DNA from: Oxalicibacterium flavum
GTDB taxonomy: Bacteria; Pseudomonadota; Gammaproteobacteria; Burkholderiales; Burkholderiaceae_D
Assembly: GCF_014635065.1 (NCBI RefSeq)
Contig: NZ_BMCG01000001.1
Coordinates: 186,001 to 250,000 of the forward strand
Direction of reading: 5' to 3'
Length of the DNA stretch: 64,000 bases
How positions within the stretch are numbered: position 1 is the stretch's first letter; the number at the start of each line of letters is the position of its first letter. The position numbers and the translations under genes are program-made. The notes beneath the pieces were generated by a model. The model searched no databases. It was given only the letters and a program-made list of their open reading frames with translations, and was not told where the DNA came from. Shown piece by piece: positions 14,847 through 21,894 of this stretch.

Positions 14847-16481
<1,635 letters not shown>

Positions 16482-16513
16482 GGCATCGTTCTCCTTGTCC
16501 ATGCAGCGTTCCT

Positions 16514-16651: not shown

Positions 16652-16685
16652 CCATGTTGTTAACAACATGGTTAACAAGTGTTGA
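16652..16685. promoter_or_regulatory. Perfect 20-bp palindrome plus adjacent half-sites: candidate enhancer
   Basis: CCATGTTGTTAACAACATGG (16652-16671) is a perfect palindrome. It is followed at once by TTAACAAGTGTTGA (16672-16685), a second near-perfect dyad. GTTAACAA is repeated 12 bp apart. The site is about 240 bp upstream of the operon start and 160 bp upstream of the activator start, distances usual for sigma-54 upstream activating sequences. It does not match the classical NifA site TGT-N10-ACA. Confidence 0.65.
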
Positions 16686-16880: not shown

Positions 16881-16896
16881 TGGCACATCAATTGCA
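16881..16896 (+). promoter_or_regulatory. Sigma-54 (-24/-12) promoter of the ABC-nitrilase operon
   Basis: TGGCACATCAATTGCA: complete TGGCAC and TTGCA elements with GG and GC 12 bp apart, an essentially consensus RpoN promoter. The predicted start is near 16907, giving a leader of about 64 nt before the ATG at 16971. Confidence 0.85.
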
Positions 16897-16970: not shown

Positions 16971-17786
16971 ATGAACTCAGTCGTCGATTTTTCCCACGTT
17001 CAGCACGAACCGCCCGCCGTGCCGGCAGCGGAACGCGCCCACATCACGGTACGCGGCCTGCACAAGGCCTTTGGCGGCGTGCCCGTCTATTCCGATTTCA
17101 ACCTCGATCTGCCCAAGGGGCGCGTGACCTGCGTGTTCGGTCCCAACGGCTGCGGCAAATCGACACTGATCAACATGATCGCGGGCCTGATCCCGCACGA
17201 TGCCGGCGACATCCTGTTCGACGGCAAGACGCTGCAGCAGACCACCATCGGCTACGTGTTCCAGAACTATCGCGAAGCGCTGTTCCCGTGGATGCGCGCG
17301 ATCGACAACATCCGCTATCCGCTCAAGCTCAAGGGCATGAGCGAGGCCGACTGCGATGCGCGCGTGCAGGAACTGATCGAATCCTTCGACGTGCGCTTCG
17401 ACCTCAACCGCTATCCCTATGAATTCTCGGGCGGACAGCAGCAGTTGATCTCCATCATGCGCGCGCTGGCGCCGCACCCGGAAGTGCTGTTCCTCGACGA
17501 GCCGTTCTCGGCGCTCGACTACGAGATGACGCTCTTCATCCGCGAGAAGCTGCAGGAAATCTTCCAGGCCACTGGCGTCACCATGATCGTGGTCTCGCAC
17601 GATCTGGAAGAAGCGGTCTATCTGGCCAATCACATCCTGCTGCTGACCAAGCGCCCGACGCGCGTGGCCGACAACGTGTTCTTCGACGCCGCCCGGCCGC
17701 GCGACCTGCGCACGCTGTCGAGCGATGCCTTCGTGCGCACCAAGGCACGCTGCCTGGATATCTTTCAGAACGAGGTACGCAAATGA
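16971..17786 (+). CDS. ABC transporter ATP-binding protein (nitrate/taurine/sulfonate type)
   Basis: 271 residues. Walker A GPNGCGKST, Q-loop FQNYREALFPWM, signature SGGQQQ (one residue from LSGGQ), Walker B EVLFLDEPFSALD and the switch VVSHDLEEA are in order. The 'FQNYREALFPW' pattern is typical of the TauB/SsuB/NrtD subfamily. MNSVVDF at 16971 has AGGA 8 nt upstream. It is the first gene behind the sigma-54 promoter; its stop overlaps the permease start (ATGA). Confidence 0.92.
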   Translation: MNSVVDFSHVQHEPPAVPAAERAHITVRGLHKAFGGVPVYSDFNLDLPKGRVTCVFGPNGCGKSTLINMIAGLIPHDAGDILFDGKTLQQTTIGYVFQNYREALFPWMRAIDNIRYPLKLKGMSEADCDARVQELIESFDVRFDLNRYPYEFSGGQQQLISIMRALAPHPEVLFLDEPFSALDYEMTLFIREKLQEIFQATGVTMIVVSHDLEEAVYLANHILLLTKRPTRVADNVFFDAARPRDLRTLSSDAFVRTKARCLDIFQNEVRK

Positions 17787-18568
17787 AAACCGCCGCCAAC
17801 CCTTTCCTTTCGCCGCACGTGCTGCGCATCGCGCGCGCCCTGATCGGCCCGGCCGCGCTGGTCGCCGTCTGGTGGGTCGCCAACGATTCGGCATGGGTCA
17901 GCAACAAGCTGCTGCCCAATCCCTTCGACACCTTCGCCACGCTCGGCAGCAGCCTGTGGTCGGGTTCGATGACGGCCGACCTCGGCGCCACGCTGTTCCG
18001 CACGCTGTATGCGTTCGCGATGGCGGCCGCGGCCGGGATTCCGGTCGGCATCGCGCTCGGCTCCAACGACCGCATCTATCGCACGGTGGAATTCCTCGTC
18101 GATTTCTTCCGCTCGACGCCGGCCACCGCGATGTTTCCGCTGTTCCTGCTGATCTTCGGCATCGGCGACTTCGCCAAGATCGCGGTCGCGGCCTTCTCGG
18201 CCTGGCTGGTGGTGGTGTTCAACGTCGCCTACGGCGTCATGAACTCGCGCAAGACTCGCATCCTGGCCGCGCGCGTGATGGGTGCGTCCAGATGGCGCGT
18301 GTTCCGCGACGTGCTGTTCTGGGAATCGCTGCCGCAGACCTTCGTCGGCCTGCGCATGGCGGTCTCGCTGGCGCTGGTGGTCATCATCGTGGCCGAGATG
18401 TTCATCGGTTCCACCAACGGCATGGGCCACCGCATCATCGATGCGCAACAGGTATTCGACCTGCAGCAGATGTACGCCTCGATCCTGATCACGGGCGCCA
18501 TCGGCTACGGATTCAACGTCCTTTTCATCGCGCTGGAGAAATGGATCGTGCACTGGGCCGGTCGCTGA
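17783..18568 (+). CDS. ABC transporter permease (TauC/SsuC type)
   Basis: 261 residues with about six membrane helices, e.g. IARALIGPAALVAVWWVA and LALVVIIVAEMFIGS. The EAA loop that docks the ATPase is seen in AARVMGASRWRVFRDVLFWESLP. Family BPD_transp_1. It starts inside the ATPase stop codon, so the two are translationally coupled. Confidence 0.92.
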   Translation: MKTAANPFLSPHVLRIARALIGPAALVAVWWVANDSAWVSNKLLPNPFDTFATLGSSLWSGSMTADLGATLFRTLYAFAMAAAAGIPVGIALGSNDRIYRTVEFLVDFFRSTPATAMFPLFLLIFGIGDFAKIAVAAFSAWLVVVFNVAYGVMNSRKTRILAARVMGASRWRVFRDVLFWESLPQTFVGLRMAVSLALVVIIVAEMFIGSTNGMGHRIIDAQQVFDLQQMYASILITGAIGYGFNVLFIALEKWIVHWAGR

Positions 18569-18595: not shown

Positions 18596-19576
18596 ATGAA
18601 AAAGCTCGTTTTGGCATCGCTCATCACCGGTCTGCTGTGCAGCGCAGGCACGGCCTCGGCCCAGAAGATGGAAAAGGTCACCGCGTCATGGCTGCCCATC
18701 ATGCAGACCATGGCCTACTACGTCGCGCTCGAGGAAAAGCTGTTCGAGAAGGCCGGCATCGAGATCAACTCGGTCAAGTTCCAGAACCCGAACCAGATCA
18801 TCGACTCGCTGGTGTCGGGCCAGGCCGACTTCGGTCCGCCGGGTGCGGCGGCCGGCATCACCGCGCTGGCCGAAGCGCGTTATCCCGGCACTTTCAAGGT
18901 CTTCGGCTTGCAGGGCGGTGGCATCAAGGTCAACATGATCAACGACGGCCTGATCGTCTCGAACGCCTCGACGATCTCCTCGTTCAAGGACCTCAAGGGC
19001 AAGCGCATCGGCACCCTGCCCGGCATCCAGTGGAAGACCATCACGCGCTACGTGATCCGCCAGAACGGGCTCGATCCCGACAAGGATGTGACCATCAACG
19101 AGATCGCGGTGCCTATGCACATCCCGTCGCTGCTGGCAGGCTCGGTTGACGCCACGCTGTCGCTGGAACCGGTCGGCTCGATCGCCGTCGCATCCGGCGA
19201 AGCCAAGCGCGCGATGACCAATCCGGTCGCGACCTTCATCGCCGATCCGTTCTATTCGGGCGTGTCGGTACTGTCCACCAAGTTCATGCAGGAACGGCCG
19301 GAAGTGGCGAAGAAGGTGGTCGAAGTGCTCGATCAGGCGACCAGGATGACCAACGAGAACTTCGACAAGTACCGTCCCATCATCGCCAAGTACACGGCCA
19401 TCCAGCCGGCCCAGGTCAACCTGGTGGCGCAACCCTATCTGCGCGCCAACAGCGAGCTGAACGCGACCGACATCCAGTCCTACCAGGCGCTGGTCAACGT
19501 GTTCGAGAAGGAAGGCGTGCTCAAGCAGCACATCGACGTCAAGACGCTGATGCTGAAACCGGGCGACTTCCGCTGA
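18596..19576 (+). CDS. Periplasmic substrate-binding protein, NMT1/SsuA-like
   Basis: 326 residues with a signal peptide (KKLVLASLITGLLCSAGTASAQ). The mature part follows the NMT1/TauA pattern: ASWLPIMQTMAYYVALEEKLFEKAGIE, IIDSLVSGQADFGPPG, DLKGKRIGTLPG. These proteins bind organic sulfonates, nitrogen compounds or pyrimidine precursors, and the ligand cannot be read from sequence. The linked nitrilase suggests a nitrile, amide or carbamoyl compound. It is 28 nt downstream of the permease. Confidence 0.9.
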   Translation: MKKLVLASLITGLLCSAGTASAQKMEKVTASWLPIMQTMAYYVALEEKLFEKAGIEINSVKFQNPNQIIDSLVSGQADFGPPGAAAGITALAEARYPGTFKVFGLQGGGIKVNMINDGLIVSNASTISSFKDLKGKRIGTLPGIQWKTITRYVIRQNGLDPDKDVTINEIAVPMHIPSLLAGSVDATLSLEPVGSIAVASGEAKRAMTNPVATFIADPFYSGVSVLSTKFMQERPEVAKKVVEVLDQATRMTNENFDKYRPIIAKYTAIQPAQVNLVAQPYLRANSELNATDIQSYQALVNVFEKEGVLKQHIDVKTLMLKPGDFR

Positions 19577-19705: not shown

Positions 19706-21409
19706 ATGACACCCCAACCCTTCCGCGCCGCCGTGGTCCAGACCCTGGCCGCACTCGGCGATCTCGATATCAACATCGGCCTGCTGCGTCAATACACGCG
19801 GGAAGCGGTGCGCCAGGGCGCGCGCCTGATCGTCTTCCCCGAATGCATGAACACCGGCTACCTGTTCGACTCCGCCGAGCATTGCGGCGAACTGGCCGAG
19901 ACCGTCCACGGCCGCTTCGTGCAGGCGATGGCCGACCTGTGCCGCGAACACAACGTCTTCATCGCCAGCGGCTTCACCGAAAAGGACGAGGCCAAGGGCA
20001 AGATCTTCAACACCGGCCTGCTGCTCGACCCCAAGGGCGAGATCATCGTCCACTATCACAAGCAGTTCCTCGCCACGCATGACCAGAACTGGTTCGAGCT
20101 TGGCGAGAACGGCTGCCCGGTGGTGGATACCGAACTCGGCCGCATCGGCCTCTTGATCTGCTTCGACGGCCGCATCCCGGAGATCACGCGCAACCTCGCG
20201 CTGCAGGGTGCCGAGATCATCGTCGATATGGCCAACTTCTTCGCGATGGATCAGGCCGACATGTGGGTGCCGGCGCGCGCCTACGAGAACGGACTGTGGT
20301 TCGTGGCGGCCACCAAGGCCGGCGTCGAGCGCAGCATCTACTATCCGGGCGGCAGCATGATCGTCGCGCCTGGCGGCGAGGTGGTCGCCAAGGTTCCGTA
20401 CGACACGCACGGCGTGGTCAGCGCCGAGATCGATGTCGCCGCCGCACGCGCCAAGCGCTGGCACCACGCCGGCGACCGCTTCCTCGATCGCCGCCCCGCG
20501 CTGTACGGCCTGATCGGCAAGCCGGTGGCCGACACGCCGCTGGCCGCGATCCTCGAGCAACCGCTGGTCCCGGAACAGAGCATCGCCAAGGCCGCCGCCG
20601 TACAGGCGCATGCAACGACGGAAGCCGGCAGCCTGGAAGCCGCCTACGAGATGATCGACCACACCGCCAAGCTCGGCGTCAAGGTCATCGTCGTGCCGCA
20701 GCACTTCGGCAGCGCGCACTGGCTGCCGGGACTGGCCGAAGCCCTGGCCGAGGCGAAGAACACGCCGGCGCACATCGCGCGCGTATCGGGCATCGCGCGC
20801 CAGTACGGCTGCGTGATCGTGCTGCCGGTACTCGAGGAAAAGAACGAGAAGATCCTGCCAACCGCGATCGTCATCGGCACCGATGGCGACATCATCGGCC
20901 GCTATCGGCAAAGCCACCTGGAACCGGAAATGACGGCATGGGCGATTGCCGGCGACAGTCTGCCGGTATTCGACACGCCGTTCGGCCGGCTCGGCGTGCT
21001 GCTCGGCTACGACGGCATGTTCCCGGAAACCAGCCGCGTGCTCGCGCTGCAGGGGGCAGACATGATCGCGTGGTGCAGCGCCTGGCGTCATCCGCTCGAC
21101 CGCAAGCTGCTGACGGTACCCAAGGCCGAGGACAACCGCGTCTTCCTGATCGCCGCCAACCGCAGCGACAGCCCCTATCCCGGTGGCTCCTTCGTGGTCC
21201 CGCCCAACGGTTTCCCGCAATGGGATCTCGACGTCGCGGCGCCGCCCGTCAAGCGGCACGGCGCGGTCATGCCGACCTTCATGAACCTCGCGCTGAGCCG
21301 CCAGAAGTTCATGATTCCGAAGGTGAACATGCTGCGCAACCGCATCGTCGCGAGCTACACGCCGATCACGGCAGTCGATGAGGAAGAAAGCGCGCTGCCG
21401 GTAGCCTGA
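19706..21409 (+). CDS. Tandem nitrilase-superfamily protein, active first domain and degenerate second
   Basis: 567 residues made of two carbon-nitrogen hydrolase domains. Domain 1 (about 5-262) keeps the triad: E46 in VFPECMNTGY, K119 in YHKQF, C152 in LLICFDGRIPE. Domain 2 (about 295-550) aligns by pattern, but the triad positions read Q332 (VVPQHFG), Q402 (YRQSHLEPE) and G434 (VLLGYDGMFPE), so it should be inactive. The enzyme probably hydrolyses a nitrile, amide or N-carbamoyl bond in the cytoplasm on a substrate imported by the preceding transporter. No signal peptide. AAGGAG lies 9-10 nt before the ATG. Last gene before a terminator. Confidence 0.88.
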   Translation: MTPQPFRAAVVQTLAALGDLDINIGLLRQYTREAVRQGARLIVFPECMNTGYLFDSAEHCGELAETVHGRFVQAMADLCREHNVFIASGFTEKDEAKGKIFNTGLLLDPKGEIIVHYHKQFLATHDQNWFELGENGCPVVDTELGRIGLLICFDGRIPEITRNLALQGAEIIVDMANFFAMDQADMWVPARAYENGLWFVAATKAGVERSIYYPGGSMIVAPGGEVVAKVPYDTHGVVSAEIDVAAARAKRWHHAGDRFLDRRPALYGLIGKPVADTPLAAILEQPLVPEQSIAKAAAVQAHATTEAGSLEAAYEMIDHTAKLGVKVIVVPQHFGSAHWLPGLAEALAEAKNTPAHIARVSGIARQYGCVIVLPVLEEKNEKILPTAIVIGTDGDIIGRYRQSHLEPEMTAWAIAGDSLPVFDTPFGRLGVLLGYDGMFPETSRVLALQGADMIAWCSAWRHPLDRKLLTVPKAEDNRVFLIAANRSDSPYPGGSFVVPPNGFPQWDLDVAAPPVKRHGAVMPTFMNLALSRQKFMIPKVNMLRNRIVASYTPITAVDEEESALPVA

Positions 21410-21501: not shown

Positions 21502-21894
21502 TCACGCCGCCATGCGTTCGTAATCGCGCCGCGCGGCGCAGATGTGCGCGTGATTGGCGTCGGCCCACGCGACCAATGACTTCATCGGCACCAGAAACGA
21601 ACGGCCGAGCGGCGTCAACTCGTACTCGACGCGCGGCGGCACTTCCGGATACAGCGTGCGCGCGATGAAGCCATCCTGCTCGAGCCGCTTCAGGGTACGC
21701 GACAGCATCTGCTTGGAGACATCGCCGATCTCGCGATGCAGAGCATTGAAGCGCATCAGCCGCGTGCCGAGCGCGTCCAGGATCAGCAGGCTCCACTGGT
21801 CGCCGATGCGGTCGAGCACGTCCCGGATCGGGCAGGTTTGTTCCGCCGTCGCGGGCGACGGCAGCGATGATGACGATGGCGATGACAGGCTCAA
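21502..21894 (-). CDS. HxlR family transcriptional regulator
   Basis: 130 residues, a small winged-helix protein. The HxlR signature is TCPIRDVLDRIGDQWSLLILDAL, RFNALHREIGDVSKQMLSRTLKRLEQDGFI and VEYELTPLGRSF. The cysteine in the TCPIR motif is the conserved HxlR cysteine, used by some relatives to sense reactive species. The start is a TTG at 21894 with GAGGAG upstream; no in-frame ATG fits. It is divergent from an NAD(P)-binding protein gene with dyads in between, a common regulator-target arrangement. Confidence 0.88.
   Translation of the reverse strand: MSLSSPSSSSLPSPATAEQTCPIRDVLDRIGDQWSLLILDALGTRLMRFNALHREIGDVSKQMLSRTLKRLEQDGFIARTLYPEVPPRVEYELTPLGRSFLVPMKSLVAWADANHAHICAARRDYERMAA

Follow-up and report, generated by a model that had tools for sequence, protein, structure and literature searches.

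What role can remain for a nitrilase domain that has lost its catalytic residues while fused to one that has kept them? The question is raised by a single gene in the window, the whole 64-kb stretch of DNA that was analysed. The gene encodes two nitrilase domains in tandem, and the original prediction had read the first as intact and the second as dead. The features of the gene are as follows.

19706..21409, plus strand: tandem nitrilase gene, 567 aa, an open reading frame without internal stop that matches Pfam CN_hydrolase twice
19706..20530, plus strand: domain 1 (D1), residues 1-275, with Glu46, Lys119 and Cys152, and Asp126 at the fourth tetrad position
20531..20581, plus strand: linker, about residues 276-292
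20582..21406, plus strand: domain 2 (D2), residues 293-567, the dead nitrilase domain, with Gln332, Gln402 and Gly434
20699..20701, plus strand: Gln332 codon, at the position of the catalytic Glu
20909..20911, plus strand: Gln402 codon, at the position of the catalytic Lys
21005..21007, plus strand: Gly434 codon, at the position of the catalytic Cys in the nucleophile elbow
21260..21376, plus strand: D2 C-terminal tail, residues 519-557, the end of which is confidently modelled only with D1 present

Domain layout and relation to known nitrilases

The whole protein matched Pfam CN_hydrolase (PF00795) in 2 stretches with 270.6 bits (1.6e-80), and D2 alone matched with 92.1 bits (E 4.7e-26), both above the gathering cut-off of 23.2. 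Alignment of the two halves, which are 30% identical, paired Glu46 with Gln332, Lys119 with Gln402 and Cys152 with Gly434. The secondary structure of the AlphaFold model agrees with this register, the triad positions being equally spaced from the strands in both halves: Glu46 and Gln332 each lie 3 residues past strands 41-43 and 327-329, Lys119 and Gln402 follow immediately after strands 113-118 and 396-401, and the elbow helices begin with Cys152 and Gly434 after strands 145-151 and 427-433. Alignment and model thus arrive at the same pairs, and the substitutions claimed for the second site are those found there.

In sequence and fold the best match was the hyperthermophilic archaeal nitrilase-amidase PH0642 (1j31, 3ivz, 6ypa; 32-34% identity), and Foldseek aligned the full model with the best PDB nitrilases at TMt 0.94-0.96. 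D2 alone reached 0.79-0.84; structures of the PH0642 type were also among its best matches, and when modelled by itself D2 was nitrilase-like with a TM of about 0.8 to 6ypa. D1 shares the triad of the PH0642-type structures, although PH0642 is a single domain with no fused dead domain and has Glu120 where D1 has Asp126. Both domains also match the profile of AguB, N-carbamoylputrescine amidase (TIGR03381), at 180 bits against a cut-off of 410; AguB is single-domain, whereas D2 of the window protein lacks the triad. The named NCBIfam equivalogs were ruled out, since the scores of nitrile_Arch (NF040852, 233 of 500 bits), formamidase (NF009803, 142 of 406) and aliphatic amidase (NF009802, 113 of 427), like that of AguB, were all far below the respective cut-offs. 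The closest likeness in layout is with the proteins of clade C, annotated 'nitrilase-related carbon-nitrogen hydrolase', which have the same two domains with Gly in place of the D2 Cys; they are about 30-33% identical to the window protein over the matched part, and their D1 retains the fourth Glu. Several of their genes have acetamidase/formamidase, urea-type ABC transporter and ANTAR regulator genes as neighbours.

Catalytic positions across the tandem family

All five orthologues at 79-100% identity share Gln, Gln and Gly in D2; the four at 79-86% identity are from Oxalicibacterium, Herminiimonas and a Burkholderiales metagenome genome. Homologues were further sought in one genome per species with patterns derived from D1, leaving the state of D2 unbiased. 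The scan returned 29 loci, of which 28 belong to the tandem family, in Burkholderiales, other Betaproteobacteria, Rhizobiales, an Enterobacterales metagenome genome, Cyanobacteria and an actinobacterial metagenome genome. A more distant clade of tandem proteins was added by plasmid and phylum-wide searches, giving a final set of 42 tandem proteins from four phyla. This set excludes L019, L042 and L076 (unreliable alignment or wrong frame) and L068-L070 (incomplete or broken copies). Among the latter, the copy on a Nitrosomonas europaea contig (L070, 760-1564) lacks approximately residues 55-363, which is most of D1, and is likely a pseudogene, while the copy in Bradyrhizobium uaiense (L068, 4633-6614) is split across two frames by a frameshift or an assembly error.

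The Glu, Lys and Cys of D1 are retained in all 42 proteins, in agreement with the triad predicted for the first domain. At the Cys position of D2, 37 proteins have Gly, the other 5 have Asp and none has Cys. The D2 Glu is retained in 22 of the 42 and the Lys in 18, and D2 of the window protein has none of the three. Loss of the second site is therefore conserved, with the Cys absent throughout and Gln, Gln and Gly kept in the close orthologues, and no homologue with both triads intact was found among the 42. In 16 proteins D2 is in the state EKEG, in which only the nucleophile is missing; the state in the window's clade is QQMG. The tree requires 3 changes for Lys, 3 for Glu and 1 for Gly versus Asp in D2, and the 33 D2 domains of an earlier set group in a single clade (SH-aLRT 90) that excludes D1 and single-domain nitrilases. 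Since D2 domains of the EKEG type lack the Cys alone, loss of the nucleophile preceded that of Glu and Lys, an order that assumes a tree root outside the D2 clade. The simplest history, which the original prediction had not foreseen, is that the D2 nucleophile was lost once and early, and that Lys and Glu eroded later and in parallel.

The working half departs from the textbook at another position, a point absent from the original prediction. Catalysis in the nitrilase superfamily employs the CEEK tetrad, in which the triad is joined by a second Glu (PMC6637149); in human beta-ureidopropionase this residue is E207, and the E207Q mutant is inactive (PMC10741476). The title of a paper cited in PMC10741476 likewise reports an amidase inactivated by mutation of the fourth Glu. 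Asp126 of D1 (codon 20081-20083) aligns with Glu120 of PH0642 at this fourth position, which is Asp in 30 of the 42 proteins, comprising the window protein and all of clades A and B, and Glu in clade C, which supplies the other 12. The fold matches from Foldseek included 4lf0, the E142D mutant of Geobacillus pallidus amidase. Judged by its residues, D1 is triad-intact yet not textbook at the fourth position and, since Asp replaces the fourth catalytic Glu, activity of D1 is not assured.

Arrangement of the domains and the role of D2

An AlphaFold2 model of the full protein, built with 26 tandem homologues, showed two domains with a mean pLDDT of 92.1 and a pTM of 0.91, values that imply a defined D1-D2 arrangement. 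Residues 528-557 of the D2 tail had a pLDDT of about 75-92 in the full model, which fell to 50-69 when D2 was modelled alone, and helix alpha6 of D2 split in two when modelled without D1. The drop in the tail and alpha6 is as expected if D2 packs both on D1, as it would in a covalent pseudo-dimer; lower confidence in the tail would be expected of any half dimer, and by itself does not tell which surface D1 uses. The models thus predict that the two domains make up a single rigid unit whose tail is interdependent.

Comparison of the five closest orthologues gave an omega of 0.03-0.11 for D1 and 0.03-0.19 for D2, approximate values with some dS above 1, and indicates that D2 is under purifying selection and functionally constrained, less so than D1. 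Conservation within D2 peaks on the elbow and the interface helices. Helices alpha5 and alpha6 form the dimer surface of nitrilases (A surface), and in D2 they are the best conserved helices, with entropies of 1.12 and 0.95 respectively versus 1.5-2.1 for alpha1-alpha3. Since this pattern is partly common to single-domain nitrilases, it is supporting evidence only; alpha5 and alpha6 also adjoin the active site. D2 was present in every tandem-type match of the D1-motif scan save at contig ends or in broken copies, and the same scan of one genome per species yielded no close relative of D1 as a free-standing protein.

In other nitrilases the C terminus or loops of the neighbouring protomer complete the active site (PMC13275509, PMC10741476, PMC6637149), and oligomerisation is required for activity (PMC13275509, PMC10741476). 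In the DRT1 nitrilase domain the site is completed by the C terminus of the neighbour (PMC13275509); DRT1 differs in that its nitrilase is fused to a reverse transcriptase and acts in phage defence, with the catalytic tetrad described as present. In beta-ureidopropionase and the helical nitrilases (8pt4, 6i00) the neighbouring subunit positions active-site loops and tails. These enzymes assemble from identical active subunits into homo-oligomers; in the window protein one neighbour is instead a fused dead copy.

The original prediction had suggested a covalent pseudo-dimer whose dead half may shape the active site or bind a regulator, and the pseudo-dimer draws support from the confident two-domain model, the dependence of the D2 tail and alpha6 on D1, the conserved dimer-surface helices of D2 and the absence of free-standing D1 relatives. 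We regard it as fairly probable that the protein is such a pseudo-dimer with D2 as the built-in partner of D1. In the mechanism proposed, D1 would be the catalytic nitrilase-superfamily domain and D2 an ancient pseudoenzyme domain standing in for the partner that a second subunit provides in ordinary nitrilase dimers. D2 would contact D1 by the helices that normally form the dimer surface, and its C-terminal tail may brace or complete the D1 active site. Replacement of the D2 Cys by Gly would have come first, leaving a pocket with Glu, Lys and Glu, and these would then have been lost in several lineages, including that of the window protein, as the pocket was no longer needed for hydrolysis.

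The main rival to the pseudo-dimer, which we consider unlikely, is that D2 is a ligand sensor in which the pocket, lacking its Cys, would bind a nitrogen signal or the substrate or product without hydrolysis and tune D1 allosterically. The EKEG state is what a pocket that binds without turnover would present, allosteric regulation occurs in nitrilase relatives (PMC10741476), and purifying selection on D2 persists. However, the Glu, Lys and second Glu are gone in the window's clade, where a polar pocket is not maintained, and it is the elbow and interface helices on which conservation in D2 is greatest. It is less probable still that D2 only stabilises D1, passively and with no role in the active site: the strength of purifying selection and the invariant residues of D2 exceed the needs of a passive scaffold, and the tail of D2 depends on D1 in the models, even though a fused dead copy could simply hold the oligomer together and the two-domain model is confident.

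Continued catalysis by D2 through migrated residues is very improbable. In the window's clade the candidate Cys457 lies where a strand next to the pocket ends, but it is Ser or another residue elsewhere in the family and was ruled out for this lack of conservation; D2 has no conserved set of Glu, Lys and Cys, and the AlphaFold register places no other such residues at the second site. Finally, broken copies do occur in the family, as on the Nitrosomonas europaea contig, so that local decay of an ordinary enzyme with two active sites, or an error of sequencing, might be supposed. This explanation, to which almost no weight can be given, is refuted by the identical replacements in five close orthologues, the loss of the Cys in every D2 of the set and the low omega.

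The operon and its probable place in nitrogen metabolism

The tandem nitrilase gene is the last of an operon, following the genes for an ABC transporter ATPase, a permease and an NMT1-type binding protein. The features upstream of it are listed below.

14847..16502, minus strand: divergent regulator with GAF, sigma-54 interaction and Fis-HTH domains (NifA-like), of a family present in 9 of the loci
16652..16671, no strand assigned: 20-bp perfect palindrome CCATGTTGTTAACAACATGG, likely an upstream activating site, with a TTGTTAACAA core kept in several relatives
16881..16896, plus strand: sigma-54 -24/-12 promoter TGGCACATCAATTGCA, by sequence match
16971..17786, plus strand: ABC transporter ATPase, starting at the ATG that follows the promoter
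17783..18568, plus strand: ABC transporter permease
18596..19576, plus strand: substrate-binding protein of the NMT1/SsuA type, adjoining the nitrilase gene in most clade A relatives

The sole exact match to TGGCAC-N5-TTGCW in the 64-kb window lies in the intergenic region that separates the divergent regulator from the ABC operon and that also holds the palindrome; nine related loci have a similar sigma-54 site at the corresponding position. The promoter sequence and the adjacent activator gene point to sigma-54 control of the operon. Most clade A loci, among them those of cyanobacteria and of the actinobacterial metagenome genome, have the same order of ABC and tandem nitrilase genes. Directly downstream is a gene for an HxlR-family regulator (21502-21894, minus strand), which was not seen to recur beside the operon in related genomes. 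Neither in the window nor in 17 related loci did Rfam reveal a guanidine or other riboswitch upstream; the only match was to an unrelated group II intron, a domain of which is at 1613-1784 of L046 near a related tandem-nitrilase locus.

Neighbouring genes in other genomes encode nitrile hydratase subunits, allophanate hydrolase (AtzF), a second NMT1-type ABC transporter and a biuret-hydrolase-like (BiuH-like) enzyme, the last scoring below its curated cut-off. Since the operon occurs with genes for nitrile hydratase, a biuret-hydrolase-like enzyme and allophanate hydrolase, nitrogen scavenging is likely, and the setting suggests that the nitrogen is obtained from a small amide, nitrile or ureide. 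In the genome of the window an allophanate hydrolase above the NCBIfam cut-off is encoded elsewhere (L092, contig C2); nitrile hydratase and BiuH gave no match in this genome, but control genomes likewise gave no nitrile hydratase match, so that the absence of this enzyme may be only apparent. In the working model the substrate would be imported by the neighbouring ABC transporter, the enzyme would release ammonia from it, and the operon would be switched on by its dedicated sigma-54 activator.

A mobilizable plasmid of wastewater Klebsiella (L072, 3919-16634) carries a complete set near recombinase and transposase genes: a sigma-54 regulator, two NMT1-type ABC transporters, the tandem nitrilase, nitrile hydratase subunits with an accessory protein, a cysteine hydrolase and a LysR regulator. 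A second tandem clade (L073, L075, L077), with Gly at the D2 nucleophile position, is found near genes for ANTAR and solute-binding regulators, and the L073 and L075 loci have acetamidase/formamidase and urea-type ABC transporter genes nearby.

We found no account of tandem, inactive or pseudoenzyme nitrilases of the present family in the open-licence papers that were searched, and automated annotation names the proteins carbon-nitrogen hydrolases, leaving the dead domain unmentioned. Within a known superfamily, the protein represents a tandem nitrilase that is widespread, carries an ancient pseudoenzyme domain in cis and has an unusual fourth catalytic residue in its working half. A speculative extension, possible though doubtful, is that the family is a branch of the superfamily built on this in-cis pseudoenzyme, in which D2 may first have sensed the substrate of D1 and later become a structural partner, and in which clades A and B, with their Asp126, may carry out a non-classical amide, nitrile or ureide reaction on some nitrogen compound.

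Nitrilases generally need a partner subunit for activity, and the roles of catalyst and partner are hard to separate when one chain is both. The tandem family seems to split them, as one half retains the catalytic residues and the other can only be a partner. The family also provides a stepwise record of the passage from enzyme to pseudoenzyme, the nucleophile being lost first and Lys and Glu then in parallel, and it marks an uncharacterised, probably nitrogen-scavenging operon common to several phyla and present on a mobilizable plasmid. Across these phyla, D2 has probably been kept by selection as a built-in partner subunit for D1.
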